From Verrucomicrobiota bacterium (GTDB lineage Bacteria; Verrucomicrobiota; Verrucomicrobiia; Limisphaerales; PALSA-1396), in the NCBI GenBank assembly GCA_016200005.1, contig JACQFP010000042.1, positions 1-64,000 of the forward strand: 64,000 nt of DNA, read 5' to 3'. The translations under genes were made by a program, and so were the position numbers. Numbering within the stretch: the stretch's first letter is position 1; the number at the start of each line of letters is the position of its first letter. Below are positions 26,176-45,780 of this stretch, one piece after another. The notes below the pieces were generated by a model. The model saw nothing but the letters and a program-made list of their open reading frames with translations. It was not told the DNA's origin and made no database searches.

Positions 26176-26582
26176 CTCGTCGCGGTCTAGCAAATCGGAA
26201 CGGCGGTGTCAACCCGCCCGTTTTGCCGGCTTTCAAGCCGATCTAAATGTGTGGCCCGGAGCCCACGAAAGCTCTTGAGCTTGTGTTGCACCAGCAGTCG
26301 GTCCAAAGTGGCGGCGCTGAATTGGTTGAGCGGTTTCCTTTGGGACGGCACAACCTGACCATAGTGCCTTTCGTTATGACGCAGCCTCAGGGACAGAGCA
26401 CCAGCCAGGCGTTTGCTGCACAGCCACTCAGCCGCCAAATAGTGCCCACCACTTCTGCCACGGGTTCATACTTGGGCTGTGGGCCAGCTCGATTTGAGTC
26501 AACTCGTGGCCTCATTCCGCTGACAAATTCTCTTGCGTTCCGGCGGCGATTGCTTTGCGCTTGGGGCGAAGAAACATTTCCT
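26176..26582. other. 407-bp region between divergent genes, no supported gene
   Basis: Open frames exist on both strands but none shows a recognisable family, a ribosome site or a domain. The last 60 bp before 26583 is clearly similar to the region just upstream of the second outer-membrane factor gene (32190-32250), so the duplication of the efflux operon included 5' flanking DNA. Confidence 0.6.
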
Positions 26583-28990: not shown

Positions 28991-28997
28991 GACGGCC

Positions 28998-31900: not shown

Positions 31901-32084
31901 GGCGCTCGTTACCGCGCTTGGATTGTTTCCTCTCGCCATCGGCGCGGGCGAAGCCGGACGGGAAATCGAAGGACCGATGGCAATCGTCATCCTCGGCGGA
32001 CTGCTGACTTCAACCGTGTTGAATCTGCTGGTGCTGCCAACGTTGGCGCTTCGGTACGGAAGGTTTGAAAAGAATCAAGTGTAA
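28998..32084 (+). CDS. RND efflux pump, CzcA/CusA-like (copy 1)
   Basis: A 1028-residue inner-membrane proton-driven pump. It has the N-terminal helix GVVITLACVVIGYGLLVA, the first periplasmic loop with VFPEFAPPMVVIQTEAPGLS, and twelve membrane helices in two halves. The fourth helix carries acidic residues in VVVDDAIIDVENILRRL near residue 403, the place of the proton-relay aspartates in heavy-metal RND pumps. The C-terminal half has GFVTLFGITMRNSIMMVSHFEHL. Overall resemblance is to the heavy-metal efflux (HME) branch. The transported ion cannot be read by eye. Seven bases separate it from the adaptor stop. Confidence 0.93.
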   Translation: MLNRIVQFSLRFRGVVITLACVVIGYGLLVASHTKLDVFPEFAPPMVVIQTEAPGLSPEQVEQLVTRPVENGINGVPNLKSIRSQSIQGLSVVTIVFREDADIYRSRQMVGERLTQAAGDLPQGVAAPKMGALTSSTALMLAIGLTSTNRTPMELRTFADWTLRPRLLSVPGVAKVDVFGGDVRQLQIQVKPDRLIAYGLDIEDVLAAARKSTGVRGAGFVEDANARTIVRSEGQSLTPQQLGEMVLVHHNGVSVRLKEVADVAEAPEPKLGDALINGERGVILLPFSQYTANTMDVTLAVERALEEIKPLLVSEKITIQPRLFRPANFIQASLHNVNVSLLIGGVLVVVVLFLFLLDLRTAFISFVSIPLSLLAAVIVLDRFGATLNTLTLGGFAIAIGVVVDDAIIDVENILRRLRENRTLPQPRSLFQVVFDASLEVRSAVVYATFIVAAVFMPVLLMKGVQGRLFAPLGTSFVLAIMASLAVALTVTPALCHLLLSRIAPPPEPKYVSWLKQRHRHWLESLSKQPRTVLVSALLLCLGAAATLPFFGGAFLPEFREGHFVVHMAALPGTSLEESLRIGREVTAELLKNPHIRSVSQQAGRAEQGEDTWGTHYSELHVDLQPLSGEEAEGVMGEIRQALGKFPGLTFKILPFLAERMEETISGATAQFVINIFGDDLDVLDQKAIEIRQVVAQVAGAVDVEMESQPGLQETVARLRPERLLQLGFRPVEVMDAIQTAYQGTVVAQTYDANKVFDVAVILHPASRKSATTLGALMLRNADGLRVPLRELAEIYSGNSRYVVSHDGARRRQQVTCNIAAGDAAAFAKQVKEQITRKVSLPPGVYLVYTGSAEAQSQARRDLLIHSVIAAVGIVLLLAIEFGTARNLSLILANLPFALVGGVLAVFASGGLLSIGSLVGFVTLFGITMRNSIMMVSHFEHLVQKEGMTWGLDAVSRGASERLLPILMTALVTALGLFPLAIGAGEAGREIEGPMAIVILGGLLTSTVLNLLVLPTLALRYGRFEKNQV

Positions 32085-32232
32085 GCTGGCGCAATGACGT
32101 GTCTTGCCCCGTGGGATAGGCGCGTCCGGCAATGAGCAAGTTCCCACAACCGGTATCCCACGGGGCGAGTGCGTTTGTAGCGCCGTGTTTTGGCCAAATT
32201 TCCTTGCGTTCCGGCGAAGATTCCTTTGCGCT

Positions 32233-33657
32233 ATGGGCAAAGAAACATTTCCCGTGTACCCTTGGCAATTCATCATCATAGTCGGACTGTTGACTGGCTG
32301 CGCTCATTTCCAGTCGCGACCCTTATCTCCAGCCGAGACAACGGCAAACCTGCAAGCACGCTCGCTCGACAATCCTGACTTAAAACAATTCCTCGAAAAA
32401 TATCTCCGCAAGGAGCCGATCACCTGGCCGCTCCCGTCGTGGGATTTGAATGCACTCACGGTGGCGGCGTTCTACTACCATCCCGATCTCGATGTCGCGC
32501 GGGCGAAATGGAGCGGAGCGAGAGCCGCGCTCATCACCGGTGGCGAGCGGCCAAATCCGAGCGTCAGTCTTTCACCAGCGTATGACACAACAACTCCGCC
32601 GCCGTGGATTCTCGGCTTGAGTTTCGACATTCCTGTCGAGACGGCAGGCAAGCGCGGCTATCGCATCGCGCAGGCGCGGCATTTGTCCGAAGCCGCGCGG
32701 CTGAATCTCGCCGCCACCGCGTGGCAGGTTCGCAGCCGCGTGCGCCGAAGTTTGCTGGAACTTTACGCCGCACGCGAAAGCGAATCGGCACAGAGGCAAC
32801 AAGCCGACGCGCAGACGAAAATCGTCGGGCTTCTTGAAAAGCAGGTTGAAGCCGGGGCTGCTTCTCCAATCGAACTCACGCAAGCCCGCATCAATCTCAA
32901 CACCACGCGATTGGCGTTGCAGGATGCACAGCGACAGAACGCTGAAGCCCGCGTTCAACTGGCCGACGCACTCGGTTTGCCGGCCCGCGCGTTGAATGAC
33001 GTGGAGCTTTCATTCGCGGGCTTGAATGAGTTTCCAAAAGATTTGATGACTTCCGAAGTCCGCCGCCAGGCCGCTCTAAATCGCACCGACATTCTCGGCG
33101 CGCTGGCGGAATACGCCGCAAGCCAGGCCGCGTTGCAGCTTGAGATCGCGAAGCAATACCCGGATTTGCACCTTGGCCCGGGTTATCAACTCGATCAGAC
33201 GGACAACAAATGGTCGCTCGGCGTCACGCTCACATTGCCGGTGTTGAATCAAAATCAGGGAGCGATTGCCGAATCCAAGGCGCGTCGCGAAGAAGCCGCT
33301 GCGCGGTTCGTTTCCGTGCAAGCGAAAGCACTCGGCGAAATTGACCGCGCGGTGGCTGGTTATCAGGCCGCGCGTGAGCAAGCCGCCACTGCCGAAGCGC
33401 TGCTCGCGGATTTGAAAAGGCGACGGAACGCCACGCAAGCAATGCTCGACGCGGGGGAAGTGGACAATCTCACCATTGCCGCCGCTCAAGCCGAACTCAG
33501 CGCGGGTTCGCTCGCGCGATTGAACTCGCTGGTGAAGGCGCAGCAAGCGCTCGCGGCGCTGGAAGACGCCGTGCAAAGTCCGTTGTCCGCTGCCGGCGCA
33601 CAAGCCTGGGAGAACAACCCCCGCCTTTCAAACGATCCAACTCTAAAACCAAAATGA
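32233..33657 (+). CDS. Outer-membrane efflux factor, TolC/CusC type (copy 2)
   Basis: A 474-residue lipoprotein starting at ATG 32233, with the leader MGKETFPVYPWQFIIIVGLL and lipobox LLTGC. It is clearly paralogous to copy 1: the N-terminal 120 residues match at most positions, and shared motifs include FYYHPDLDVARA, SFDIPVETAGKRGYRI and VLNQNQGAIAESKARREEAAARF. The role is the outer-membrane tunnel for the second pump. An in-frame extension to 32104 is not supported. The adaptor at 33654 overlaps its stop by four bases (ATGA). Confidence 0.9.
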   Translation: MGKETFPVYPWQFIIIVGLLTGCAHFQSRPLSPAETTANLQARSLDNPDLKQFLEKYLRKEPITWPLPSWDLNALTVAAFYYHPDLDVARAKWSGARAALITGGERPNPSVSLSPAYDTTTPPPWILGLSFDIPVETAGKRGYRIAQARHLSEAARLNLAATAWQVRSRVRRSLLELYAARESESAQRQQADAQTKIVGLLEKQVEAGAASPIELTQARINLNTTRLALQDAQRQNAEARVQLADALGLPARALNDVELSFAGLNEFPKDLMTSEVRRQAALNRTDILGALAEYAASQAALQLEIAKQYPDLHLGPGYQLDQTDNKWSLGVTLTLPVLNQNQGAIAESKARREEAAARFVSVQAKALGEIDRAVAGYQAAREQAATAEALLADLKRRRNATQAMLDAGEVDNLTIAAAQAELSAGSLARLNSLVKAQQALAALEDAVQSPLSAAGAQAWENNPRLSNDPTLKPK

Positions 33658-34676
33658 AGAAACCATTCACCAAACTACTTGCAGTTGTGCTGAGCACCGT
33701 TGCTTTCGTCGGTTGCAAACCCGGTGGGCAGGAGGAGAACGACAAGGTCGTCACAGAGGTTGCCGTGCAAGTCGGCAAATTGACGCGCGCCACGCTGCAC
33801 CGGTATGTCACGGCCTACGGCATCGTGGAACCAGAACCGGCGCGTGACGGCAAACCCAGCGCGGGCGCGCGGCTCGCTCCGCCGGTGGCGGGCATCGTCG
33901 CGGAAGTGAACTGCGCCGAAGGTCAGCGCGTTGAAAAAGGTACGGTGTTGTTTCGCCTCGACAGCCGGCCCGTTGACGTAGCGGTTCAATTCGCGAAACA
34001 GACTTACGAGCGACAGAAAAAACTTCTGCCCGTCGGCGGCACGTCGCAGAAAGCGCTTCAGGAGGCCGAACAACAACTCGCCGCGGCGCGCGCGCAACAA
34101 GCGTTGCTGAGAATCGAAGCGCCGTTAGCCGGTGTCATCACTCGCGTCAACGCCCGCCCCGGTGAAGCCGCGGACCTGACGAGCGTTCTCGGCGAACTGG
34201 TGGACACCGCACGGCTCGTCGCCACCGCCAGTGTACCCGCCGGTGAAATGGACGGACTAAAGGCCGGACAATCCGTCGAGTTCATCAACGAGGGCAAGCC
34301 ACTAACCGCCCGTGGCGCGGTAGCGTTTATCAGCCCACAAGTTGACACGAAGACGGGCGCGGCGTTGCTGCGTGCGTCTGTGCCGGCGAACGCGGGCTTG
34401 CGTCCCGGCCAATACGTCAATCTCCGCATCGTAAGCGAAGAACGCGCCGGAAGGCTGGCCGTGCCGGTCGAGAGTGTGGTCACCGATGTCGAAGGCCACA
34501 GCGTCATTGCTTTGGTTGAAGGAGACAAAGCCACACAGAAATCAGTGAAGGCCGGCCTGCGCGATGGCGGTTTGGTTGAGGTTGAGGGCGAAGGATTGAA
34601 GGAGGGTGACACGGTGGTGACCGTCGGTGCTTATGGTTTGCCCAAGGAGACGAAGGTGAGGGTGGTCAAACCCTGA
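33654..34676 (+). CDS. RND efflux adaptor lipoprotein (copy 2)
   Basis: A 340-residue periplasmic adaptor with a lipoprotein signal, KKPFTKLLAVVLSTVAFVGC (Cys22). It has the lipoyl halves GIVAEVNCAEGQRVEKGTVLFRLDSRP and APLAGVITRVNARPGEAADL flanking a short helical hairpin, then barrel segments including LRPGQYVNLRIVSEERAG. It is of the AcrA/MexA-CusB group but not closely similar to copy 1, so the two operons are not simple recent copies throughout. Overlaps the outer-membrane factor stop. Confidence 0.9.
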   Translation: MKKPFTKLLAVVLSTVAFVGCKPGGQEENDKVVTEVAVQVGKLTRATLHRYVTAYGIVEPEPARDGKPSAGARLAPPVAGIVAEVNCAEGQRVEKGTVLFRLDSRPVDVAVQFAKQTYERQKKLLPVGGTSQKALQEAEQQLAAARAQQALLRIEAPLAGVITRVNARPGEAADLTSVLGELVDTARLVATASVPAGEMDGLKAGQSVEFINEGKPLTARGAVAFISPQVDTKTGAALLRASVPANAGLRPGQYVNLRIVSEERAGRLAVPVESVVTDVEGHSVIALVEGDKATQKSVKAGLRDGGLVEVEGEGLKEGDTVVTVGAYGLPKETKVRVVKP

Positions 34677-34702
34677 CCGGCTACGGGCAATAGCGTCATC
34701 GC

Positions 34703-37700
34703 ATGAAAATAGACAATAGTTCGTTTCTGGGCCGGTTCGCCACGCATCACGCGCTGTCCATCACCTTCATTGCGGTTGCCTTGTGTGTGGCGGGGATTTA
34801 TGCGGCGTTCCAAATGCCGTCATCAGTGTTCCCGCAGACGAACTTCCCGCGCGTGGTGATCCTCGCTGACAATGGTGTGATGCCGGCCGACGAAATGATG
34901 GCGACCATCACGCGGCCCATTGAGGAAGCCATGAAGGATATTCCCGGCACAGTCACCATCCGCTCGGCGACGGGACGCGGCTCGGCGGAAATCAACGTCT
35001 TCTTCAACTGGCATGTGGACATGGTTCAGTCCGAGCTTTACGTGTTGGGCCGTTTGGCGCAAATCCGCTCGACTCTTCCCACAACAGTGCAGACGACCAC
35101 GTGGCGACTGACGTTTTCGGCGTTTCCGATTATTGGCGTGAGCCTCACCAGTCCGACGCGCGACATCACGCGGCTTTGGGAAACGGCGCGCTATGATCTC
35201 AAGCCGCGCTTCCTGACCATTCCCGGCGTGGCGCGTGTGGACCTGGTCGGTGGTCGCGCGCCGGAATATCACGTGATCGTGGATCCAATCCGCTTGCAGG
35301 CGGCGAATCTCGGCTTACAGCAGATCACGGAAGCCCTGTTGAAAAACAACCTGATTTCTCCGGCGGGCATGCACGAGGAGAACTACCGGCTTTACCTCAC
35401 CACCGTGGATGGCCGCGTGCATTCGGCGAAGGACATCGAGGACCTTGTGGTCATAGTAACCGACGGCCATCCCATTCGCGTGAGAGATTTGGCGAAAGTG
35501 GAACGCGGACCAGAGCCAGTCTTCAATGTCGTGACCGCGGAAGGCGTCAACGCGGTGCTGCTCAACATCCGCAGTCAACCTGACGGCAGCACGCTGGACA
35601 TTGCCGGCCAGTTGAAAGCGCAGTTGCAGCAACTCAAGACTGAGTTGCCGCCGGACATGAAGCTGGCGTTTTTTTACGATCAATCCCTGTTCGTTCGTGA
35701 ATCGGTGCGCAGCGCCTGGGAAGCGATCCTGTTCGGCCTGATTCTCTCGGTACTTATCTTGTACCTTTTCTTGAAGAACTGGGGCAGCACGCTTACGGCT
35801 ACCATCGTCATCCCGGTGACGGTGCTGGCCACCCTCTTGGCGATGAAGGTGCTGGGCATGAGTTTCAACCTGATGACGCTTGGAGGCATCGCCGCCGCGA
35901 TCGGCCTGGTGATTGACAACGCCATCGTGGTTGTCGAAGCGATCCACACCAAAATTGCCACGGGTCGTTCCCGCGTGGAGGGCGTGGAGGAAGCAGTAAG
36001 CGAGATTCTTGCTCCGTTGGTCGGTTCAACGCTCACGCCGGTCGTCGTGTTCCTCCCGCTGGCGTTTCTCGAAGGCATCGCGGGCGTGTTCTTTCGCGCG
36101 CTGGCGCTCACGATGGTCGTATCGCTGCTGACCTCGCTCGTGCTGGCCATCACCTTGATGCCGTCATTGGCGGCTTGGTTTCTTCGCGACCGGCAGCATC
36201 TGGAGCACGGGCGCGCGCCCAAAGATGCCGAAGGCGGCTTTCTGCTTCGGCGGCTGATTCGTGTTTATGAGAAGGCAGTGCGCGCCACACTGCGCCACGA
36301 ATGGCTGACGTTGCTGGCGTGTGGCGGTGTGCTTGTGGCAGCAGTTGTCATTTACCAACGGCTGGAAAGCGACTTTCTGCCTCCGTTGGACGAAGGCGGC
36401 TTCGTCATCGACTATCTCGCTCCGCCCGGAACGAGCCTCACCGAGACGTCACGCCAACTCTTGCAGGCAGAAGAAATTCTGCGCGCCACGCCGGAGATCG
36501 AAAGCTATTCGCGCCGGACGGGCGCGCGGCTGGCGCTGGCCATCGCCGAACCGCACACCGGCGATTTTCTCGTCAAGCTCAAGCCGGGGCGAAAAAAATC
36601 CACCGAGGAGGTTATTGCGGAATTGCGGGCCGAGTTTCGCCGAAGGTTTCCGGCGATCACTTGGGAATTCCCTGGCATTCTCAGCGACCTGGTAGGCGAC
36701 TTGACGTGGTCGCCCCAGCCCATTGAAATCAAAATCTATTCCTCCGACCTGAGCTTCCTGAAACAGAAAGCGCCTCAAGTCGAGGAGCAGATTCGAAAAG
36801 TAAAAGGCGTCGTGGACACTTTCAACGGGCTGATGTTCACCGGCAATTCCCTCAACTTGCGCGTGCGCCATCTGGACGCCGAACGGTTTGGTCTCACCGC
36901 AGATGACATCGCCGCCGCCGTGAACACGGCAATGCTTGGCCAAGTCGCCTCGACGGTGCTCGAAGGCGACCGCGTGGTGGCTATTCGAGTGCTGGCAGAC
37001 CCAAAGAGCATGGATCGAATTGCCACTTTGCGCACGCTGCCGCTCCGCACACCCGCTGGCGGAGTGGTGCAACTGGCGCAAGTCGCCGATGTAATCGAAG
37101 AGCCAAGCCAGGTCGAACTCCGCCGTGAAGACTTGCGCCAGGACGTTGCGGTGACGGCGCGGCTCGAAGGCCGCGATCTCGGGAGCGTAATGGCGGAAAT
37201 TCGGGCGGCTTTGAGTCAGGACGAAACATTGCCGCCCGGCTCAGTCGAGTTTGGCGGGCTTTACCAACAGCAACAGGAGTCTTTCCGCAATCTACTGATG
37301 GTCCTGCTGATGGCCATTTTCCTGGTGTTCACCGTGCTGCTGATTGAATTCCGGTCGTTCTATGAGCCAATTTCCATCGTGTTTGGCGCGGTACTGGCGC
37401 TGTTCGGCACGGTGTTCGCGCTTTGGCTCACCCATACATCGCTCAACATCGTCAGTTTTCTCGGCGCGATCATCGGCGTCGGCATCGTGGCGAAGAACGG
37501 CATCCTTATGCTGGATTTCGTGGGGCATTTGCGAGCGGACGGCGCGAGCCTGGAGGACGCTCTGGTTCGCTCCGGCCACCGGCGTTTACGGCCAGTGCTG
37601 ATGACTTCCATGGCTGCCGCGTTTGGCATGTTGCCGCTGGCTTGGGGGATCGGCACGGGCGCGGCAATGCTCAAACCGCTGGCTATCGCGGTCATCGGTG

Positions 37701-37810
37701 CTCTCTGTATTTCGGTGCTGTTGTCGCTTGTGGCGACGCCGACCGTGTATTACCTGATGCTCCGGGTGCGAGAGAAGTCAGCCTTGCCCAAGCTTGCGCC
37801 GCATGAGTGA
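34703..37810 (+). CDS. RND efflux pump (copy 2)
   Basis: A 1035-residue pump with the usual RND layout: first helix HALSITFIAVALCVAGIYAAF, periplasmic VFPQTNFPRVVI, the fourth-helix motif GLVIDNAIVVVEAIHTKI, and a C-terminal GVGIVAKNGILMLDFVGHLR. The motif has one acidic residue fewer than in copy 1 (IDNAIVVVE against VDDAIIDVE), which suggests a different substrate or a hydrophobe-type rather than a strict heavy-metal pump. The last gene of the second operon. The fluoride riboswitch promoter lies just downstream. Confidence 0.92.
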   Translation: MKIDNSSFLGRFATHHALSITFIAVALCVAGIYAAFQMPSSVFPQTNFPRVVILADNGVMPADEMMATITRPIEEAMKDIPGTVTIRSATGRGSAEINVFFNWHVDMVQSELYVLGRLAQIRSTLPTTVQTTTWRLTFSAFPIIGVSLTSPTRDITRLWETARYDLKPRFLTIPGVARVDLVGGRAPEYHVIVDPIRLQAANLGLQQITEALLKNNLISPAGMHEENYRLYLTTVDGRVHSAKDIEDLVVIVTDGHPIRVRDLAKVERGPEPVFNVVTAEGVNAVLLNIRSQPDGSTLDIAGQLKAQLQQLKTELPPDMKLAFFYDQSLFVRESVRSAWEAILFGLILSVLILYLFLKNWGSTLTATIVIPVTVLATLLAMKVLGMSFNLMTLGGIAAAIGLVIDNAIVVVEAIHTKIATGRSRVEGVEEAVSEILAPLVGSTLTPVVVFLPLAFLEGIAGVFFRALALTMVVSLLTSLVLAITLMPSLAAWFLRDRQHLEHGRAPKDAEGGFLLRRLIRVYEKAVRATLRHEWLTLLACGGVLVAAVVIYQRLESDFLPPLDEGGFVIDYLAPPGTSLTETSRQLLQAEEILRATPEIESYSRRTGARLALAIAEPHTGDFLVKLKPGRKKSTEEVIAELRAEFRRRFPAITWEFPGILSDLVGDLTWSPQPIEIKIYSSDLSFLKQKAPQVEEQIRKVKGVVDTFNGLMFTGNSLNLRVRHLDAERFGLTADDIAAAVNTAMLGQVASTVLEGDRVVAIRVLADPKSMDRIATLRTLPLRTPAGGVVQLAQVADVIEEPSQVELRREDLRQDVAVTARLEGRDLGSVMAEIRAALSQDETLPPGSVEFGGLYQQQQESFRNLLMVLLMAIFLVFTVLLIEFRSFYEPISIVFGAVLALFGTVFALWLTHTSLNIVSFLGAIIGVGIVAKNGILMLDFVGHLRADGASLEDALVRSGHRRLRPVLMTSMAAAFGMLPLAWGIGTGAAMLKPLAIAVIGALCISVLLSLVATPTVYYLMLRVREKSALPKLAPHE

Positions 37811-37857
37811 GGCAACCCACGGTGGCCGGGCTGCATCCACGCTTTCCCGTTTTGCAT

Positions 37858-37886
37858 TTGACAACGTTGGCTCTGATCTTGATTGT
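37858..37886 (+). promoter_or_regulatory. Probable promoter of the fluoride riboswitch operon
   Basis: A perfect -35 box TTGACA (37858-37863) and a weaker -10 box GATTGT (37881-37886) are 17 bases apart. The expected start six or seven bases later falls on G37893, the first base of the riboswitch aptamer. Confidence 0.5.
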
Positions 37887-37892
37887 TTTTCC

Positions 37893-37979
37893 GGCAATGG
37901 AGTTTGCCCTTCCGCAAGGGAAAACCGCCTGAGCAATTCTCAGAGCTGATGACTCCTACCGAGCATTCGTGTGCGGTAG
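37893..37979 (+). promoter_or_regulatory. Fluoride riboswitch (crcB motif)
   Basis: The aptamer spans 37893-37960. The first stem is GGCAA/TTGCC around the loop TGGAGT. An optional hairpin, CCCTT/AAGGG, follows, then AAACCGC and the stem CTGAG/CTCAG. The hallmark CTGATGACTCCTAC (37946-37959) ends it. The loop GGAGT pairs with ACTCC in that hallmark, reproducing the conserved pseudoknot. Downstream, CTACCG (37956-37961) pairs perfectly with CGGTAG (37974-37979), an alternative hairpin that competes with the aptamer's 3' end and is a plausible expression switch. There is no T-run, so control may be translational. It precedes a six-gene operon at 38060. Confidence 0.9.
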
Positions 37980-38059
37980 AAGTCTTATGAGCTATCTCTG
38001 GATAATCGTCAGTGGCGGGCTGCCAGCCGTAAACCTCAATTCGACGAAAGGTCGCTGAT

Positions 38060-38428
38060 ATGCACCTCCCTCACGAAGCCGTTTTGTTGCGTATCTTTCT
38101 CGGCGAAAGCGACCGATGTAACCACCAGCCGCTCTACGAAGCCATCGTGCTCAAGGCGCGTGAAATGCATCTCGCCGGCGCGACGGTGCTGCGCGGGCCA
38201 ATGGGCTTCGGTAAATCAAGCCGACTCCATACCGCGAAGCTTCTTCGGCTTTCAATGGATCTGCCGCTGGTGATTGAGATCGTTGACACGGAAGAAACAA
38301 TCCAAGGCTTCCTGCCCGTCCTGGACAGAATGATGAGAGGCGGGTTGGTGACGTTGGAAAAGGCAAAGGTGATTGATTATCGCGGTGATCCAGATGTGCG
38401 GCCACCGCAACCTGAGGAAGCGACCTAA
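38060..38428 (+). CDS. DUF190 family protein (PII-like)
   Basis: A 122-residue cytoplasmic protein of the DUF190 family, a ferredoxin-like PII-resembling fold. Family signatures are ESDRCNHQPLYEAIVLKARE, AGATVLRGPMGFG, SSRLHTAKLLRLSMDLPLVI and EIVDTEETIQGFLP. DUF190 proteins are often linked to CrcB fluoride channels and CPA2 antiporters, which suits its place as the first gene after the fluoride riboswitch. A ribosome site, GAAAGG, at 38045-38050 lies partly in a CGAC/GTCG hairpin. Two bases separate it from the antiporter gene. Confidence 0.9.
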   Translation: MHLPHEAVLLRIFLGESDRCNHQPLYEAIVLKAREMHLAGATVLRGPMGFGKSSRLHTAKLLRLSMDLPLVIEIVDTEETIQGFLPVLDRMMRGGLVTLEKAKVIDYRGDPDVRPPQPEEAT

Positions 38429-38430
38429 AG

Positions 38431-39648
38431 ATGGAGAACATCTGGTTCATCGCCGCGTTTTGGATGGGACTGGCATTGCTGGCGAGCCTCATCTCCATCC
38501 GGCTGGGCATTTCAGTGGCCCTGATTGAAATCGTGGTAGGAGTGATTGTCGGAAACATTCACTTTGGCCAGTACCACCACCTGCTGCGCACAACGGAGTG
38601 GACTAATTTTCTCGCCATGTTAGGTAGCGGCGTTTTGACTTTTTTAGCCGGAGCGGAAATCGATCCGGCGTCCCTCCGCGCCAATCTACGCGCCAGTTTG
38701 AGTATCGGCATTCTATCCTTCCTGCTGCCATTTTTGGCGGTGTGGGCGTTTGCCCAATTCGTGCTCGGCTGGCCGCTGCATCAGGCGCAAATCGCGGGCA
38801 TCGCTTTGTCCACCACGTCGGTCGCTGTGGTGTATGCCGTAATGATTGAGGGCGGATTCAGCAACACGTCATTGGGCAAGACAATTTTAGCGGCTTGCTT
38901 CATTACCGATTTCGGCACAGTGCTGGCGCTTGGCACGTTGTTCGCCAACTTCAACATTTGGCTGCTTGCGTTCGTGGTCATTCTTTCGGTCATGCTTTGG
39001 TTCATGCCGACGTGGACGCAACTGATCATCACGCGCCTCGGCGCAACGCGGGTCAGCGAGCCAGAAGTGAAGTTTCTGTTTCTGGTTTTGTTTTTTCTCG
39101 GTGGCCTGGCATCCACAGCCAAAAGTGAAGCAGTGCTGCCGGCTTATCTCGTCGGACTCGTCGTGGCGGGGGTATTTCTGCGCGACAAAACCCTGGTTCA
39201 TCGGATGCGCAGCATCGCATTTACGATCTTTACGCCGTTTTATTTTATCAAAGCGGGCCTGTATGTTTCACTGCCTGCGTTGTGGGCGGCGCTGGGAATC
39301 ATCATGGTGTTGCTGGCGCTCAAACTGGTGACGAAGTTCATTGGCGTCTGGCCGTTGACGAAAGTGTTTTACATGCGGACGCGCGAGGCCAACTACACCA
39401 CGCTGCTCATGGCAACGGGTCTGACCTTCGGTACCATCTCCGCTCTGTTCGGTCTGCAAAATAAAATTATTGACCAGACGCAATACACCGTGCTCGTGAC
39501 CGTGGTGATTTTGAGCGCGTTCGTGCCAACGCTCATCGCGCAGAAGTTTTTCCAGCCGCGCCTCAAAGTGATGATTGCCTGGGGCCGGCTTTATCAACGC
39601 AAGATCAATGGGAAATCAAGTGCTCAACCCATTCCAACGAAAGGCTAG
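38431..39648 (+). CDS. Cation:proton antiporter (CPA2, KefB/NapA-like)
   Basis: A 405-residue membrane protein with about 12 helices. It shows LTFLAGAEIDPASLRANL, the substrate-region helix STTSVAVVYAVMIEGG, and ACFITDFGTVLALG, where the aspartate should be ion-binding. It is a transporter without the C-terminal TrkA-N domain of the larger KefB proteins. Fluoride riboswitches are known to control Na+/H+-type antiporters in other bacteria. In the absence of CrcB or a CLC-F channel here it is the best candidate for the fluoride-protection function, by direct or indirect ion exchange. Substrate not shown by sequence. Confidence 0.9.
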   Translation: MENIWFIAAFWMGLALLASLISIRLGISVALIEIVVGVIVGNIHFGQYHHLLRTTEWTNFLAMLGSGVLTFLAGAEIDPASLRANLRASLSIGILSFLLPFLAVWAFAQFVLGWPLHQAQIAGIALSTTSVAVVYAVMIEGGFSNTSLGKTILAACFITDFGTVLALGTLFANFNIWLLAFVVILSVMLWFMPTWTQLIITRLGATRVSEPEVKFLFLVLFFLGGLASTAKSEAVLPAYLVGLVVAGVFLRDKTLVHRMRSIAFTIFTPFYFIKAGLYVSLPALWAALGIIMVLLALKLVTKFIGVWPLTKVFYMRTREANYTTLLMATGLTFGTISALFGLQNKIIDQTQYTVLVTVVILSAFVPTLIAQKFFQPRLKVMIAWGRLYQRKINGKSSAQPIPTKG

Positions 39649-39651
39649 GTT

Positions 39652-40077
39652 ATGTTCAGGAAAATTCTCGTCGGTTATGACGGTTCAAAAGGCGGGAAAG
39701 CCGCTCTGCAGCGTGCCGCGGTCATCGCCAAGGAATTCACCGCTGAAATCACCGCGCTTTGGGTGCGTGAACCGCTGCCGCGCTACTCTGATCTGCCAGG
39801 CGAATACGAGGAAGAGTCGGAAGCGGCGGACGAATACTTCCAAGCACGCCAAAAGGAAGTCCAAGGTGTCGCCGTGCAACACGGTATCAACATCCCATGC
39901 GAAACCCGCCGAGGCCATCCAGCCAAAACGATTGTGAAATTCGCCGATGACGGCAGGTACGACCTGATCGTCATCGGACACAGCGATCATTCCGAATTGT
40001 GGGGACGATTGCTCGGGGACACCGCCGACCGTATCAGCGACCACGCCCATTGCAGCGTGTTGATTGTAAAACAGTGA
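39652..40077 (+). CDS. Universal stress protein, UspA family
   Basis: A 141-residue cytoplasmic Usp domain. It begins with FRKILVGYDGSKGGKAALQRA and ends with the ATP-loop region VIGHSDHSELWGRLLGD and the strand HCSVLIVK. The central part has a charged extension, ESEAADEYFQAR. UspA genes are known members of fluoride riboswitch regulons. Three bases separate it from the antiporter stop. Its biochemical role is unknown. Confidence 0.92.
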   Translation: MFRKILVGYDGSKGGKAALQRAAVIAKEFTAEITALWVREPLPRYSDLPGEYEEESEAADEYFQARQKEVQGVAVQHGINIPCETRRGHPAKTIVKFADDGRYDLIVIGHSDHSELWGRLLGDTADRISDHAHCSVLIVKQ

Positions 40078-40108
40078 CTAACGTTCTATCGAGTTTGGCA
40101 GTCGGCTT

Positions 40109-40828
40109 ATGAATGCGTCGTTTCAATTCGTCGGAAGGACGCGAGAAGTTGCGCAGCTCGAAAAACTGTACTCAGAACGCAAGCATGTGCTGATTCTCGG
40201 CCTGGCCGGGACGGGGAAAACCGCCCTCATCAGTCACGTCCGTAAAACCCTGCCGGTGATTGTCTGCCCGCACACCACCAAAATGACTGAGGCTTGCGAC
40301 GCGCTCGAAAATGAACTCGGTTTGCACCCGGAAAGTTTCAAACTCATTCAGCGAAAGCAAAAGCTGTTCAAAGTTTTGGCGGAGGCGAGACGGACAGTTG
40401 TCTTTGACGGCGTGACGTGGACGACGCCCAAGCTCAGTGCTTTCCTTGATTGCGTGAGCGAGCGCGTGCCTGTCTGGATTTGTTGCCGCTCAGAACACTC
40501 TTGGGACATCGGCCACTTCTGGCCATTCCTTTGGAAATTCGTCCGCGTCGGACTTCAGCCGTTCCAATTGTCCGAGACGCGCTCGCTCGTGAAAGCCGCC
40601 GTGCAAAGTGGAGCGATTCCGCCTGATGCCACGCATGTCATCAAGGAATTGCATCATCTTTCTGCGGGAATCCCGCTTGTCCTCCGCGAGTTGTTCGACG
40701 AACTGGCCACGCGGAAATACGACCCGAAGAATCCTTTCGACCTTCGGCTGCTGGATTTGGACCGTCGCATCCACGAAATTTTCCCGACGGCAACCGCGCT
40801 CGGATCGAAATCAAACCCGACGTTATGA
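40109..40828 (+). CDS. AAA-type P-loop ATPase of unknown role
   Basis: A 239-residue protein with the opening FVGRTREVAQLEKLY, typical of STAND/AAA ATPases, and the Walker A loop GLAGTGKT at residues 31-38. A sensor-like segment, LQPFQLSETRSLVKAA, and HHLSAGIPLVLRELFDEL follow. It stops short of the usual C-terminal domains, so it is a minimal nucleotide-binding module. It is the fourth gene of the riboswitch operon. No family I know places such a protein in fluoride response, so the function is open. Confidence 0.8.
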   Translation: MNASFQFVGRTREVAQLEKLYSERKHVLILGLAGTGKTALISHVRKTLPVIVCPHTTKMTEACDALENELGLHPESFKLIQRKQKLFKVLAEARRTVVFDGVTWTTPKLSAFLDCVSERVPVWICCRSEHSWDIGHFWPFLWKFVRVGLQPFQLSETRSLVKAAVQSGAIPPDATHVIKELHHLSAGIPLVLRELFDELATRKYDPKNPFDLRLLDLDRRIHEIFPTATALGSKSNPTL

Positions 40829-41241
40829 ATGAAGTGACTGTGGCATTGCTGGCCGCCTGCGTCGCCGGGTTTATGGCGATGATGGTTCGGGCGGGCATCT
40901 CTCCAAACCTTCGCGTGGCTATTCGCACCACATTAATTCTGGCGCTGGTTTGGATTTTTGCGTATGCGAATCAAAAACCCATATCCTTACTGGCGTTGTC
41001 CTGGTCTGTGCGGTGCATGGTGGTACTCTCCGGTCTTGCGATCGCTTTGGCTTGGTTTTTTCATTTTCGCGGGTTGCGACAACCGGAGACGCCAAGTGTT
41101 GCACCGATGGACAGAATAAACGTGCTCTTCGCCGCGCTTTTTGCCGTCTTGCTGCTTTACGGTCCCTCTGCTCAACGTTTCGGCTTGGGAGCATTGCTCC
41201 TGGTTAGCGGCGCGCTCATCTTGTCCTGGAACCGTAATTGA
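40825..41241 (+). CDS. Half-size EamA-domain membrane protein
   Basis: A 138-residue protein with five predicted membrane helices. Its pattern AIRTTLILALVWIFAYAN, LSGLAIALAWFFHFRGLR, VAPMDRINVLFAALFAVLLL and a final LLLVSGALIL matches single EamA (drug/metabolite transporter) domains that work as dimers. It overlaps the ATPase stop by four bases (ATGA), so translation is coupled. Substrate unknown. Confidence 0.75.
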   Translation: MNEVTVALLAACVAGFMAMMVRAGISPNLRVAIRTTLILALVWIFAYANQKPISLLALSWSVRCMVVLSGLAIALAWFFHFRGLRQPETPSVAPMDRINVLFAALFAVLLLYGPSAQRFGLGALLLVSGALILSWNRN

Positions 41242-41242
41242 T

Positions 41243-41683
41243 GTGAACGAGAATCACGAACGTCATCTCATTTCAACGTTCCGGTACGTGGACAATTTGA
41301 TGTCCGAAGCCGAACGTATTCTTGCGACGGCAGGCTTAGCCTCGCCGTTTCGGGAATACACGCAGGACTACACGCCGACGCAGCGCCAAGTGATTCATGG
41401 TTGCCTCCTCCGCGTGCGCGAGGATATGCGGCGGATAATGACGGACTTGAAAATCACCCGAACCGTGCCGACTTGCGGCGCGCTTTGGGCGGCACGCGGC
41501 CACCTCGCTTTTGCCAGCATCGCCGTTGCGGAACTGGAGCCGAAGCGAATGCGCGGCTACGGCGAACTCTCGGACGCCGACAAAAAAGCGCTCGACGGCG
41601 TCGTCGCCGAGTTGTCCAGTGAACTAGACCGTTTGATGGCTTATCTCGATAAAGGCTCGGCTTCCGACGCCAGGGTTGCGTGA
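41243..41683 (+). CDS. Helical protein of unknown function
   Basis: A 146-residue protein starting at GTG 41243, two bases after the previous stop. An open frame upstream to 41141 overlaps the EamA gene and is not needed. The sequence is mostly alpha-helical with many charged residues (LMSEAERILATAG, MTDLKITRTVPTCGALW, LSSELDRLMAYLDKG) and no recognised domain. It is the last gene of the riboswitch operon by spacing. Confidence 0.7.
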   Translation: MNENHERHLISTFRYVDNLMSEAERILATAGLASPFREYTQDYTPTQRQVIHGCLLRVREDMRRIMTDLKITRTVPTCGALWAARGHLAFASIAVAELEPKRMRGYGELSDADKKALDGVVAELSSELDRLMAYLDKGSASDARVA

Positions 41684-41728
41684 TAGTCGGTTCGAGGAGA
41701 AGCGCGCGGAGTCGCTGGATGAGTGAGC

Positions 41729-42043
41729 TTATTTCGATTCGAGATTGAGGGCTTTGGTTGCCCAGCGAGCCAGATCCTCGTGGTCTTCCAACACAAACGC
41801 GGGAACTTCGTAATAATTCTTCAGCTTCTGCTTCTTGCCCGGCCTAAAGGGCTTCATTCGTTCGTCCAGGTAATCCTCCACGGTGTGTTCGTCCGTTTTG
41901 AAATAAAGCTTGCCGTCGTGAATGATGCCAAAGAAGCGCGCGTCCGCATAAAGCCCATAACCGCCAAACATGGGGCGGCACTGCACATCCGGATTTTCGC
42001 GCAATTGATCCAGCACGAAATTCTTAAACGACTCTGCTTTCAT
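41729..42043 (-). CDS. TfoX N-terminal domain protein
   Basis: A 104-residue protein. ATG 42043 gives MKAESFKNFVLDQL. The TfoX/Sxy N-domain signatures are CRPMFGGYGLYADARFFGIIHDGKLYFKTDE and the end FVLEDHEDLARWA. The domain occurs in competence regulators but stand-alone forms like this one are widespread and of unknown role. An open frame continues upstream to 42253 without the domain and is not included. Transcribed towards the riboswitch operon. Confidence 0.85.
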   Translation of the reverse strand: MKAESFKNFVLDQLRENPDVQCRPMFGGYGLYADARFFGIIHDGKLYFKTDEHTVEDYLDERMKPFRPGKKQKLKNYYEVPAFVLEDHEDLARWATKALNLESK

Positions 42044-42245
42044 CCGTTGTTCGGCAAAAATTAGTGGACGGTCTGCGGCTGGTGGCACTTCAAACCGGTC
42101 CGCGCCTTGATTGTCGGTGACGAGCCGACGAAGATGCAACAAGTTTTTGAATGGTGTTTCCAGCGCACCGGAATATTCTGGTCGTTCAGGGGTTATTGAT
42201 TGAACACCGCCATGAAATTCCGCTATCGTTGTTGTCTGACTGAGT

Positions 42246-44174
42246 ATGCGCAAACTGTTGTCTCATCGTTTGGGGGGCGTGGCCCTCTTTTACGTTATCT
42301 TTCTGGCCGTTGCCCTGGGCATCCGGCTGGTCCTGCTGTTTCATTCGTGGCGCAACATGGATCTACACCCGCTGAAGCTGGCCGGCGTCTTCGCTTACAG
42401 CTTCCTCTTCGATCTGGCGACGGCTTCCTGCTTTACCATCCCGATGATTCTGTATCTGGCGCTGCTGCCGCAACGCTGGTTTGCCAGCCGTGTGCACCGC
42501 TTTCTCAGCGCGACATTTTATTTTGTATGCCTCTACGGTTTGATATTTGTGGCCGCTGCCGAATGGTTTTTCTGGGAGGAGTTTAGTGCGCGATTCAATT
42601 TCATCGCCGTCGATTACCTCGTCTATACCACCGAAGTCATCGGCAACATCCAGGAATCCTATCCACTGCCGCTGATCTTTAGTGGACTGTTCGTCGTCAC
42701 CGCGCTGCTCTTCTACGGTTTTTGGAAAACCGGGTGTTTGCGAATCTGGCAACAATCGCAGTCCGGATGGCGAAGTCGTTGGGTTTGGGCCGTCGTGCTT
42801 CTCATCCCGCCAATCTTCTTCACTCTCGTACTCAACAACCGTCAAGTGCCCGAATTTGGCAACGTGTTCAACCAGGAGCTGGCCAAGGACGGCATTTACT
42901 CCTTTTTTGCTGCCTATCGGGAGAATGAACTCAGTTACGACCGGTTTTACCCCACGCTCGACGACCAAGTGGCCTTTGGGCGTCTGCGTAAATTGTTGCG
43001 GACGGACAACGCCCAATTGCTTTCGGAAGAACCCACCGACATCACGCGCTCTATCAAGAACGAGGGCGAGGAGAAACGTTACAACGTCATTCAAATCACG
43101 GTCGAAAGCCTGAGCGCCAAGTTTCTCGGTGCGCTGGGCAATCGCAAACACCTCACTCCGAATCTCGACGCGCTGGCCGAACAGAGCCTGTTCTTCACCA
43201 ATTTCTACGCTACCGGCACCCGGACAGTGCGCGGCATGGAAGCCTTGGTCCTCTCGCTGCCGCCCACGCCCGGCCAATCCATTGTCCGCCGACCGGGCAA
43301 CGAGCAAATGTTCACACTCGGCTCGGTGTTGCGATCGCGGGGCTACGACACGGCATTCATCTACGGTGGCTTTGGCTATTTCGACAACATGAATTATTTT
43401 TTCGAGCACAACGGTTACAAGCTGGTTGATCGCGCCTCGGTGCCGAAAAGCGAGATCACATTCGGCAATGTCTGGGGCGCGTGCGACGAAGACCTGTTCA
43501 ACTGGGCGCTCAAAGAGGCGGACTCATCCTATGCGAAAGGCAAACCGTTTCATCACTTCGTCATGACCACGTCCAATCATCGGCCTTTCACCTTTCCCGG
43601 CGGCAAGATTGACATTCCGTCGCACACCGGCCGGCACGGCGCGGTCAAATACACCGATTACGCGATCGGCGAATTGTTGCGCAAGGCGCGGGAGAAACCG
43701 TGGTTCACCAACACGCTGTTCGTCATCGTCGCCGACCACTGCGCCAGCAGCGCCGGCAAGACCGCGCTGCCCGTTGACGGCTACGCGATTCCGCTTTTCA
43801 TTTATAATCCCTACCTGATCCAACCCCGGAAGGTGGCGGCGCTGTGCAGCCAGATTGACTTTGCACCCACCATGCTCGGATTGCTCAACTGGTCTTATCC
43901 CAGCCGTTTTTTTGGAAAGGACATTCTCAAAATGCAACCGTCCGATGAGCGCGCTTTCATCGCGAATTATCAAAAGCTGGGCTACCTGCAAAAGAACCGA
44001 TTGGCAATACTTCAACCCGTGCGAAAAAAGAATCTCTATCAATACGATCACGCCAAGGAGAGCCTTGTTTCCACAACGCCCGACGAAGAATTCCTGAACG
44101 ACACCATTGCTTACTATCAGACGGCGAGTTACCTCTTCACGCATCATTTGGACAGGGAAATTGAAGCGAAATAG
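42246..44174 (+). CDS. LTA-synthase-like membrane sulfatase/phosphoglycerol transferase
   Basis: A 642-residue protein with five N-terminal helices (residues 10-230) and a periplasmic alkaline-phosphatase-fold domain. The latter has QITVESLSAKFLG with the metal Glu, the nucleophile Thr in TGTRTVRGMEAL near residue 325, HHFVMTTSNHRPF and FVIVADHC. The group transfers phosphoglycerol to membrane glycolipids or periplasmic glucans (LtaS, OpgB). In a Gram-negative-type cell an OpgB-like role on a periplasmic glycan or surface sugar is more likely than lipoteichoic acid. ATG 42246. A long inverted repeat follows the stop. Confidence 0.88.
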   Translation: MRKLLSHRLGGVALFYVIFLAVALGIRLVLLFHSWRNMDLHPLKLAGVFAYSFLFDLATASCFTIPMILYLALLPQRWFASRVHRFLSATFYFVCLYGLIFVAAAEWFFWEEFSARFNFIAVDYLVYTTEVIGNIQESYPLPLIFSGLFVVTALLFYGFWKTGCLRIWQQSQSGWRSRWVWAVVLLIPPIFFTLVLNNRQVPEFGNVFNQELAKDGIYSFFAAYRENELSYDRFYPTLDDQVAFGRLRKLLRTDNAQLLSEEPTDITRSIKNEGEEKRYNVIQITVESLSAKFLGALGNRKHLTPNLDALAEQSLFFTNFYATGTRTVRGMEALVLSLPPTPGQSIVRRPGNEQMFTLGSVLRSRGYDTAFIYGGFGYFDNMNYFFEHNGYKLVDRASVPKSEITFGNVWGACDEDLFNWALKEADSSYAKGKPFHHFVMTTSNHRPFTFPGGKIDIPSHTGRHGAVKYTDYAIGELLRKAREKPWFTNTLFVIVADHCASSAGKTALPVDGYAIPLFIYNPYLIQPRKVAALCSQIDFAPTMLGLLNWSYPSRFFGKDILKMQPSDERAFIANYQKLGYLQKNRLAILQPVRKKNLYQYDHAKESLVSTTPDEEFLNDTIAYYQTASYLFTHHLDREIEAK

Positions 44175-44211
44175 TCGTCACCATTACTGTGCGGAATTCT
44201 CGCTCTTCAAA

Positions 44212-44279
44212 TAGCCGCCGAAGTGATGAGTCGGAGTGGACGGTTCATCGTTTGGTCCGTCTCGTTACTCCGGCGGCTA
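44212..44279. repeat. Inverted repeat between convergent genes
   Basis: Arms 44212-44235 and 44256-44279 match at 20 of 24 positions by hand count, the outer nine (TAGCCGCCG/CGGCGGCTA) perfectly. It lies between the stop of the LTA-synthase-like gene and the stop of the DUF1501 gene and could serve as a terminator for both. Confidence 0.75.
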
Positions 44280-44295
44280 CCTATTCAACGGTCCA

Positions 44296-45780
44296 TTAAG
44301 CCAAAACTTCGCGGATCACCTGCCCATGCACATCAGTGAGGCGACGTTCGATGCCGTTGTGATAGAAGCTCAGGCGCTCGTGATCCAATCCCAGCAGATG
44401 CAGAATGGTGGCGTGAAGATCGTAAATGGTCGCAATGTTCTCCGCGGCTTGATAACCAAATTCATCCGTGGCGCCGTAACTGAAGGCGCGTTTCACCCCG
44501 GCGCCGGTCATCCAAACCGTGAATCCCTTCGGATTGTGATCGCGCCCGTTGGCGCCCTTTTGAAACGTCGGCATCCGACCAAACTCCGTCGTCCAGACGA
44601 CCAGCGTATCCTCCAACAAACCCCTGCCCTTCAAATCGCGCAACAGGGCAGCGGTAGGTTGATCGAAGATCGCCGCGTGGATTGAGTATTGTTCCTTCAG
44701 TTTTCGATGCCCGTCCCAGTTGCCGACACCTTCGCCCATCGCATAAGAGCCGTTGAAGAGTTGAACGAACCGCACGTCACGCTCCAGCAACCGGCGAGCG
44801 AGCAGGCAATTTTTTGCATAACCCGCCTTGAGCTTGTTGGCATCGTTGACGCCATACAACTCGCGGGTGACGGCGCTTTCCCCGGATAAATCGCTGACCT
44901 CCGCGGCGCGCAATTGCATCTTGGCTGCCAGTTCGTAACTGGCAATCCGCGCGCTGAGGTCGGTGTCGCCCGGATGTTTCTCAAGATGTTTGTCGTTGAT
45001 GAATTTCAAAAAATCGCGCGTGGAGGTTGCGGCGCTTTCGCTAATCTGCTCAGGACGGTTCAGATTGGGAATCGGTTTGTCGGCATTGAAGGCCGTACCC
45101 TGAAAAACCGCCGGCAGAAAAGCCGAGGCCCATTGGCGCGGGCCGATTTGCGGCACGCCGCGCGGATCGGGAATGGCAACAAAGGCAGGTAGATCACTGC
45201 ACTCGGTCCCCAGCGCGTAGGAAACCCACGCGCCCATGCTCGGAAAACCGTCCAGCGTGAAGCCGGTGCTCATCTGGTTTTCCGCCGGACCATGCGTGTT
45301 GCTCTTGGCGGTCATGGAATGAATGAAGCACAGGTCATCCGCCAGTTCCGCCAGGTTGGGGAACAGGTCGGAAATGTATTTGCCGCTTTGCCCGCGTGGT
45401 TTGAATTCCCAGATCGGCTTGACGAGATTGCCCTGCTCGCCTTGAAACGTGATGAGCTTTTCATTGCCCGGCAGCGGCCTGCCATCCATCTTGATCAACT
45501 CCGGTTTGTGATCCCACGCGTCAAGATGACTACATGCGCCGGAACAAAAGATCAGCAACACGCGTTTAGCTTTCGCCGGAAAATGCGGCGGCCGCGCAGC
45601 CAACGGCGCCTCCGGACGGACTTGCGGTCGGATCGGCGAACGATCTCTTTCCGCCGCCATCAAACCTTGCTCGCCAAGCAACGTCGCCAGCGCAATGCCG
45701 CCCAAACCCGTCCCGGCAAATTGCAGAAACGTGCGTCGGTCGAGCAACCGACGACCGGCATGGGAAAGCTCGGTGCTCAT
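44296..45780 (-). CDS. DUF1501 family protein with Tat-type leader
   Basis: A 494-residue exported protein. A twin-arginine-like leader, [19 protein letters not shown], is followed by the alkaline-phosphatase-fold DUF1501 domain: [54 protein letters not shown] and [13 protein letters not shown]. These proteins are abundant in Planctomycetes and Verrucomicrobia and nearly always accompany a DUF1549/DUF1553 protein, here the gene just upstream (27 bases between). The substrate is unproven, although complex polysaccharides are suspected. ATG 45780. Confidence 0.93.

Follow-up and report, generated by a model that had tools for sequence, protein, structure and literature searches.

The fluoride riboswitch and its expression platform

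What does a fluoride riboswitch control when the operon behind it encodes neither a CrcB channel nor a CLC-F transporter? The question is raised by a locus in a 64,000-nt stretch of a Verrucomicrobiota contig (the window). We consider it highly probable that the locus is an eroded fluoride-response operon from which crcB has been lost, with an intact crcB retained under a second riboswitch. The features concerned are:

37884..37965, + strand, fluoride riboswitch aptamer (RF01734, crcB motif); cmscan 46 bits, gathering score 34, full model 1-64
37951..37984, + strand, expression-platform hairpin GACTcCTACCG...CGGTAGaAGTC; MFE and centroid folds, 17 related platforms compared
37987..38058, + strand, crcB deletion remnant, a 23-codon in-frame ORF joining the CrcB N-terminus to the CrcB C-terminus
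38060..38428, + strand, DUF190 (PF02641), the usual crcB neighbour; 7.7e-40, 135.5 bits against a cut-off of 23.4
38431..39648, + strand, CPA2-like cation:proton antiporter (Na_H_Exchanger, PF00999, 3.8e-41), with TD where NapA has DD
39652..40077, + strand, universal stress protein (Usp, PF00582, 1.5e-31)
40109..40828, + strand, AAA/STAND-like P-loop ATPase (AAA_16-type, PF13191, 2.5e-8)
40825..41241, + strand, small EamA-like membrane protein (PF00892, 28.1 bits, just under the cut-off of 28.2)
41243..41683, + strand, 146-aa helical protein corresponding to the N-terminal domain of dynamin-like GTPases ~680 aa long; no Pfam family above cut-off

The riboswitch, first recognized in a sequence-only reading of the window, was borne out by the covariance model, which it matches with an E value of 1.5e-9 over the 64 kb. 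No other RNA family reaches its gathering score in the window, and a second riboswitch near the upstream RND operons was ruled out, positions 26000-45000 being otherwise empty at E values up to 5. The GGAGT/ACTCC pseudoknot strands, the hallmark CTGATGACTCCTAC and the CTACCG/CGGTAG hairpin named in that reading are all present in the sequence. The hairpin re-uses the 3′ pseudoknot strand and ends two bases upstream of the remnant start codon. The aptamer, the pseudoknot strands, the overlapping competing hairpin and the position 5′ of fluoride-stress genes are shared with other members of RF01734; the window copy differs in having a hairpin that lacks a U-tract and, as its first cistron, the crcB remnant. 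The same reading placed a promoter immediately upstream. A TTGACA is indeed present at 37858-37863, but a scan with a threshold of 9 of 12 matches detected no promoter in 37600-38200, and a promoter upstream of the riboswitch is only weakly predicted.

The U-tract is absent from the sequence after the platform hairpin, as judged in a comparison with 17 related platforms, and a terminator search found no intrinsic terminator at the window riboswitch. U-tracts are present at the switch of the genome's own crcB and at those of loci L037, L042, L219 and L218, and the L048 switch has none although its crcB is intact. Terminators are described as overlapping the fluoride riboswitch in many, but not all, cases (PMC2864571, in excerpt). 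With a hairpin but no U-tract, the window copy may have lost some or all of its switch function, and the locus could then be a decaying, non-responsive relic, expressed constitutively or not at all, in keeping also with three genes that are reduced or absent relative to L037, the nearest relative (crcB, enolase and the dynamin-like GTPase). This is, however, unlikely, as the aptamer scores above the genome's own crcB switch (46 against 41.4 bits), the five reading frames from DUF190 to EamA are uninterrupted and tightly spaced, and the antiporter retains the invariant residues that were checked. The preferred reading, an eroded operon, has a riboswitch that presumably still responds to fluoride.

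A crcB remnant between the riboswitch and DUF190

Six co-directional genes lie 3′ of the riboswitch, separated by 2, 3, 31, -4 and 1 nt, and neither a CrcB nor a CLC gene is among them. This agrees with the tight six-gene operon without an exporter originally described, except that a seventh, short ORF between the switch and DUF190 had been overlooked. It encodes MSYLWIIVSGGLPAVNLNSTKGR*, two ends of CrcB fused in frame, and its TGA stop lies one base upstream of the DUF190 ATG (junction TGA-T-ATG). This 23-aa fusion is all that the operon contains of a CrcB/Fluc (PF02537) channel. When matched as two separate pieces against the genome's own CrcB, the remnant scored 65, a value reached by none of 5000 shuffles (null mean 3.5, sd 9.3, maximum 42), and the in-frame fusion of both CrcB ends therefore indicates that crcB was deleted at the window locus. 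The same match to the L037 CrcB is weaker, with a score of 25 that was reached by 73 of 5000 shuffles. This last result, the shortness of the ORF and its origin in a draft assembly are what could be said for a chance ORF or an assembly artefact. A chance ORF was rejected on the match to the genome's own CrcB; the remnant DNA differs from the intact crcB on contig C38, so the remnant did not arise by a simple collapse of the C38 copy, and comparable remnants are present in other assemblies. Either origin is thus extremely improbable.

Relatives of the operon and apparent recurrent loss of crcB

The sequence-only reading had proposed a search for the same gene order in related genomes. L037 does have the same operon, but with an intact crcB, an enolase gene and a full dynamin-like gene, in the order riboswitch, crcB, DUF190, antiporter, usp, enolase, AAA, EamA and dynamin-like GTPase. 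Its dynamin-like protein is full-length, with an N-terminal domain that corresponds to the last gene in the window. The enolase and Dynamin_N assignments were made with Pfam, which confirmed the L037 enolase; other gene names in relatives, such as hydrogenase-like and MFS, were given by eye. In the antiporter tree, L037 is the sister of the window (93/93, slightly short of the star threshold set for the tree) and, as L037 has crcB, the loss in the window is most simply taken as derived.

Losses similar to that in the window are found in L042 (G201), L197 (G155) and L219 (G150), together with a CrcB::DUF190 fusion in L218 (G011), a truncated crcB in L038 (G197) and a crcB pseudogene in L078 (G219), and loss of crcB seems to have occurred in several lineages. 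Many of the compared genomes are draft or metagenome assemblies, and single deletions could therefore be assembly errors. Where both ends of the deletion are recognisable, it is in frame in 5 of 5 cases (p 0.004), or in 5 of 6 with the L078 pseudogene included (p 0.018), a small excess that was noticed after the fact and in a count that leaves out L038 and the L205 frameshift.

The ancestral layout would have been that of L037, with crcB excised in the window lineage by an internal in-frame deletion of ~109 codons, if the lost CrcB was as long as the one that the genome still encodes. The deletion would have spared the crcB start, the TGATATG junction and the last codons, in which the AAAGG ribosome-binding site of DUF190 is located. 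The enolase would have been lost and the dynamin-like gene reduced to its N-terminal domain, although the enolase could instead be an insertion in L037. Binding of fluoride and Mg would form the GGAGT/ACTCC pseudoknot and so break the hairpin beside the remnant start, with the result that the 23-codon remnant would be translated and ribosomes passed on to DUF190 and the rest of the operon. The induced antiporter and Usp would oppose the acid load from HF entry, and fluoride would exit through the intact CrcB encoded on C38. The locus would then be a case of a riboswitch operon that lost the namesake gene of its switch, yet kept the switch, the ribosome-binding site and the reading frame. Among the matches listed, no publication joins a fluoride riboswitch with a pseudogene, a leader peptide or translational coupling.

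The fluoride operon of Enterobacter cloacae FRM (ppaC-uspA-eno-gpmA-crcB-orf5249; PMC5533749, in excerpt) is likewise riboswitch-led and has six genes, including uspA, and an enolase as in the closest relative of the window. The window operon has no crcB, pyrophosphatase, enolase or gpmA, and has instead the antiporter, DUF190, AAA, EamA-like and helical-domain genes.

Exporters elsewhere in the genome and in related genomes

The genome has two fluoride riboswitches, and an intact crcB-DUF190 pair stands under the second, on C38. A crcB elsewhere in the genome had been allowed for in the sequence-only reading, and this one encodes the single CrcB match of the genome. The window DUF190 is 83% identical over 109 aa to that beside the intact crcB, and looks like a former crcB neighbour left after the deletion. 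Given the intact pair under its own riboswitch, the earlier suggestion that DUF190 and the antiporter replace a dedicated channel is unsupported in this genome. The signatures of CLC-F are GNNLI/GMGLI and GREGT/V (PMC11139923, in excerpt); the only CLC found in the genome (contig C79) has GREGG and no GNNLI, whereas the four riboswitch-linked CLCs of relatives all have GREGT, with NNLI, TNLI or SNLI.

In 6 of 28 antiporter genomes (G197, G198, G200, G208, G209 and G210, from a series, G196-G223, for which completeness is not given), a riboswitch-antiporter operon is present and no intact CrcB was detected. No CLC was found in four of the six, and those of the other two lack GNNLI and GREGT. 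The riboswitch of G200 has the same place as in G151, which is 93% complete. The CLC search covered 29 genomes; G016 and G176, which have the riboswitch and antiporter and no CrcB, are outside this set. The riboswitch calls in relatives include nine matches under the gathering score, and the places of two (L196, L218) were fetched. CrcB is missing from 55 of 196 related genomes, so its absence is weak evidence for replacement.

A riboswitch-linked clade of CPA2-like antiporters

Antiporters and Usp proteins were already known in fluoride riboswitch regulons (PMC11139923, PMC5533749, both in excerpt), as the sequence-only reading correctly stated. According to the excerpt of PMC11139923, riboswitch-linked Na+/H+ antiporters are the most common associated class after exporters and are assigned to pH homeostasis. 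Those antiporters and that of the window have in common a CPA fold and a position directly under the riboswitch, but the window clade is CPA2-like, with TD or ND where NapA has DD, and may not be the same set. Loci of the best 80 of 130 antiporters were considered, of which 75 were scanned (L112-L116 were left out): a riboswitch is present at the gathering score in 66 of the 75, with L043 scored as a miss despite a 26-bit match upstream, and lies within 300 nt of the antiporter in 54, a cut-down crcB intervening in L038. Antiporter homologues (E<=1e-60) are encoded in 13 of the 196 related genomes, this genome included, and in all 13 a same-strand fluoride riboswitch is located upstream within 1 kb.

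The best structural match of the antiporter is NapA (5bz2, VIA; Z 41.3, rmsd 3.4, 367 residues aligned, 21% identity), and Foldseek matched it to 4bwz at 1.7e-12, consistent with a NapA/KefC-like fold. The TIGR00932 score of 105.8 bits is below the cut-off of 238.3, and a PDB sequence search with the single antiporter and helical proteins gave nothing at E <= 0.001 and one chance-level match (E 0.65). At residues 159, 160 and 302, checked in an alignment with the IDD and GK of NapA, the first Asp of the DD pair is Thr in 74 and Asn in 7 of 81 antiporters, and the second Asp and Lys302 are present in all 81. As KefC aligns with QD here, the DD pair is not universal in CPA2.

The substituted first Asp beside an invariant Lys, the closeness to the switch and the six genomes without a detected intact CrcB or CLC-F-type CLC would fit a clade that, with DUF190, stands in for the channel and exports fluoride itself, by F-/H+ exchange or its equivalent. 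We nevertheless regard this as improbable. This genome keeps an intact crcB under its own riboswitch, many such operons have no DUF190, CrcB is in any case often missing from related genomes, the protein folds like a cation:proton antiporter, and the literature assigns riboswitch-linked antiporters to pH homeostasis (PMC11139923, in excerpt). There is a similarly low probability that the antiporters form a fluoride-dedicated CPA-superfamily clade with members in several phyla, able to remove fluoride alone as a third bacterial type of exporter. If so, loss of the first ion-site carboxylate beside the conserved Lys would permit anion binding, and repeated in-frame excision of crcB would be the trace of takeover by the antiporter, the stub being kept as a coupling leader. 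Among the matches listed, titles and abstract openings did not mention resistance to fluoride by an antiporter only, and none concerned DUF190 with fluoride antiporters. An eroded operon remains the preferred reading, and the clade is offered as a candidate for study in genomes where the searches revealed neither an intact CrcB nor a CLC of the CLC-F type.

Accessory genes

The three distal genes had been put forward as new accessory members. For EamA, this comes mainly from one close relative, L037 (56% identical); L062 and L072, both fluoride loci, have weaker matches (31%), and L095 has one on the opposite strand. Membership of the helical protein is supported by its context, but it is not a new kind of protein: it is a truncated or stand-alone dynamin-like N-terminal domain, 63% identical over residues 1-142 to a 689-aa L201 protein that carries Dynamin_N. 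Bacterial dynamin-like GTPases (PF00350) that are riboswitch-linked align with it over their first ~140 residues, but the GTPase domain present in these homologues is absent from the window copy. A GTPase relic elsewhere in the window was rejected, the matches being weak and scattered (best E 0.034). The fold search with the helical protein had no match at E <= 0.001 (best E 0.76) and is uninformative, the model having a pTM of 0.52. A full-text search joining dynamin with the fluoride riboswitch returned nothing in the literature collection searched. The profiles for the AAA and helical families derive mainly from riboswitch-linked rows and were run with E limits of 1e-20 and 1e-8, respectively, and distant unlinked homologues could therefore be missed. 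The AAA/dynamin-like set is offered as a further candidate under fluoride riboswitches. For the AAA ATPase, accessory membership is supported by context: only 9 of the 196 related genomes carry the family, and a fluoride riboswitch lies upstream of 8 of the 9 copies at a distance of up to 4 kb, which in 6 cases is no more than 60 nt.

Riboswitch and crcB stub

The window operon is a reduced member of known riboswitch-linked fluoride gene sets. Exporters, antiporters, usp, enolase, pyrophosphatase, mutS and formate hydrogenlyase are on record under fluoride riboswitches in PMC11139923, PMC5533749 and PMC2864571. The literature searched yielded no description of an excised crcB with a preserved stub, nor of AAA/dynamin-like members of fluoride operons. 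The riboswitch and the stub lie at:

37884-37965, + strand, fluoride riboswitch RF01734 (cmscan, 46 bits; gathering score 34)
37987-38058, crcB stub ORF between riboswitch and DUF190, MSYLWIIVSGGLPAVNLNSTKGR followed by a stop

RF01734, which bears out the riboswitch proposed in the sequence-only reading, is the sole family matched at gathering thresholds across the whole 64 kb, and a second cmscan of 26000-45000, at E values up to 5, added no further family. The 37887-37992 fold has a z-score of -2.25, with equally good folding in 6 of 200 shuffles, and the competing CTACCG/CGGTAG hairpin noticed earlier is present in both the MFE and centroid structures. This hairpin takes the 3′ pseudoknot strand, making hairpin and pseudoknot mutually exclusive. 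When related switches are compared, a U-tract follows at the own crcB and at loci L037, L042, L219 and L218 of relatives, whereas none follows the window hairpin, where a terminator scan also found nothing; the U-tract is likewise absent at further loci, including L048, whose crcB is intact. With neither U-tract nor terminator found, the switch probably works on translation, through the ATG at 37987, rather than by termination; alternatively, it may be weakened.

The operon had been read as lacking CrcB; there is indeed no full crcB, but the in-frame stub beginning at this ATG had been overlooked. The genome's intact CrcB (L004, 5498-5896) starts MLAYLWIGLGGALG and ends LLAVGLNSMKGT before its stop. 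Against these two ends the stub has a split-alignment score of 65, equalled by 0 of 5000 shuffles (mean 3.5, sd 9.3, maximum 42); against the CrcB of the sister locus, L037, the score is 25, reached by 73 of 5000. The stub-DUF190 stop-start, TGATATG, and the GAAAGG 5′ of DUF190 resemble the own crcB-DUF190 junction. Judged from sequence, and assuming a 132-aa CrcB, the window would have lost about 109 crcB codons in frame.

In the own genome, 96% complete at 6.54 Mb in 87 contigs, there are two fluoride riboswitches, one CrcB and two DUF190. The sequence-only reading had raised the possibility of a crcB elsewhere, and an intact one lies on contig C38 under the second fluoride riboswitch, which ends at 25472, with the CrcB match 36 bases on and DUF190 following. 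The single CLC has GREGG and lacks GNNLI, so that two of the three CLC-F signatures (GNNLI and GREGT among them) listed in PMC11139923 are missing. Riboswitch-linked CLCs at L223, L224, L226 and L227 have GREGT plus NNLI, TNLI or SNLI motifs and serve as a positive control for CLC-F among relatives.

Recurrent decay of crcB

Decayed crcB under riboswitches in relatives, read by eye except for tblastn matches (in brackets, shuffles of 5000 reaching the stub's score against own CrcB and L037 CrcB)
L042, stub, MLNHAKGN and stop (40; 0)
L197, stub, 29 aa (2; 0)
L219, stub, 35 aa (1; 0)
L218 432-760 (genome G011), in-frame fusion joining the crcB N-terminus to the DUF190 C-terminus, directly under a fluoride riboswitch
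L038, crcB ending after ~60 matching residues, with a stop that overlaps the start of the antiporter
L078, crcB pseudogene
L205/L084, crcB frameshift

Where both ends of the deletion are recognisable (window, L042, L197, L219, L218) it is in frame in 5 of 5 (p 0.004), or in 5 of 6 with the L078 pseudogene (p 0.018), a small, post hoc count that leaves out L038 and L205. The L218 deletion leaves no full DUF190. In a 30-row antiporter tree, with 8 of 27 inner forks open and L197 represented by a 214-aa piece only, the window, L042 and L197 fall in separate groups. At L045 and L043, DUF190 follows the switch with no recognisable crcB piece. Similar leaders of 182 and 181 nt separate riboswitch and antiporter at L190 and L191 (G012, G097), and could derive from the start of a crcB that has decayed heavily.

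The closest antiporter locus among the best 80 of 130 relatives, L037 (88% identity), is sister to the window in the tree (support 93/93, not starred), and is ordered riboswitch-crcB-DUF190-antiporter-usp-enolase-AAA-EamA-helical domain. L037 shares the window gene order but adds crcB and an enolase, identified by Pfam, that is missing from between usp and AAA in the window. The last window gene encodes the N-terminal domain of a dynamin-like protein only; at L201, from a genome with the same riboswitch places, the last gene encodes a 689-aa protein with Dynamin_N. Because stand-alone N-terminal domains occur in Gemmatimonadetes loci (144 aa in L109, L111 and L113; 186 aa, counted from the first start, in L110), the window domain may still act alone.

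The antiporter clade

Of the best 80 of 130 antiporter relatives, 75 were scanned with Rfam; a riboswitch lies ≤300 nt upstream in 54 and within 1300 nt in 12 more, with no such match at gathering score in 9. Among 196 genomes (the own genome and its relatives, which share its genus or order where listed), riboswitch matches at E≤0.001 occur in 39, above the cut-off in 35. All 13 with an antiporter homologue at E≤1e-60 carry a same-strand riboswitch 23 to 940 nt upstream of the match; the G155 gene is split across two contig ends. The AlphaFold model (pLDDT 83, pTM 0.82) best matches NapA 5bz2 (Z 41.3, rmsd 3.4 over 367 residues, 21% identity), and NCBIfam places the antiporter near CPA2 at 105.8 bits, under the cut-off of 238.3. 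At the NapA IDD the clade has TD (74/81) or ND (7/81), and Asp160 and Lys302 are kept in 81/81; in NapA the aligned Asp pair of the IDD belongs to the ion site, and the Lys sits in a later helix.

A replacement of CrcB by such antiporters is conceivable but improbable. CrcB is matched in 23 of 28 genomes bearing this antiporter, and as the G197 match is a truncated copy only, six (G197, G198, G200, G208, G209, G210) have no intact CrcB. Four of these lack CLC, neither GNNLI nor GREGT occurs in the two CLCs of G198 or the single one of G200, and a riboswitch is close upstream of the antiporter in all six. However, 55 of the wider 196 genomes, many of them drafts, are without CrcB regardless, and many operons pair the antiporter with an intact crcB. 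The pH-homeostasis role given to riboswitch-linked antiporters in PMC11139923 accommodates all observations with no need for a new activity.

AAA and dynamin-like partners

Matches to the AAA profile turn up in 9 of 196 genomes. The match begins 45 to 54 nt 3′ of the riboswitch in G191, G156, G081, G148, G181 and G011 (the last with one internal stop); in the own genome and G192 this distance is 2.1 and 3.8 kb, respectively. The remaining match, in G100, comes 9.9 kb after a riboswitch and shares its strand with the crcB copies and the enolase-like ORF that intervene. The helical-domain profile matches 7 of the 196 genomes, all with AAA (weakly in G148, in two frames in G181), and 6 of 8 proteins picked from AAA/helical-domain neighbourhoods have Dynamin_N. 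In the literature searched by full text, no paper brought dynamin together with the fluoride riboswitch.

A second, ~560-aa dynamin-like GTPase (GRFK(A/S)GKSSFLNHL) recurs by eye 3′ of fluoride riboswitches, at L194, L198, L199, L201, L203, L218, L222 and L225. The L218 copy has Dynamin_N, and is preceded by a metallophosphoesterase-dUTPase protein.

Neighbouring efflux genes

Two tandem outer-membrane-factor, fusion-protein and RND efflux sets, oriented like the fluoride operon and 5′ of it, occupy 26247-37810 (OEP, HlyD-type and ACR_tran by Pfam, the first fusion protein having no Pfam match). The RND gene at 34703-37810 ends 73 bases before the riboswitch, and transcription of these sets may continue into the riboswitch region. 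At L228 697-6501 (G195), ORFs resembling TolC and MFP by eye, together with an RND gene 76% identical to this window RND, stand downstream of a fluoride riboswitch that scores 43.9 bits. A sub-threshold riboswitch match (30.7 bits) at L196 (G151) is also 5′ of ORFs that resemble TolC and MFP by eye, with no homologue of the window RND in the stretch searched. At L218, L219, L220 and L229, riboswitch-DUF190 units are followed, whether or not crcB is present, by runs of genes that by eye resemble complex-I/hydrogenase-4 membrane subunits.
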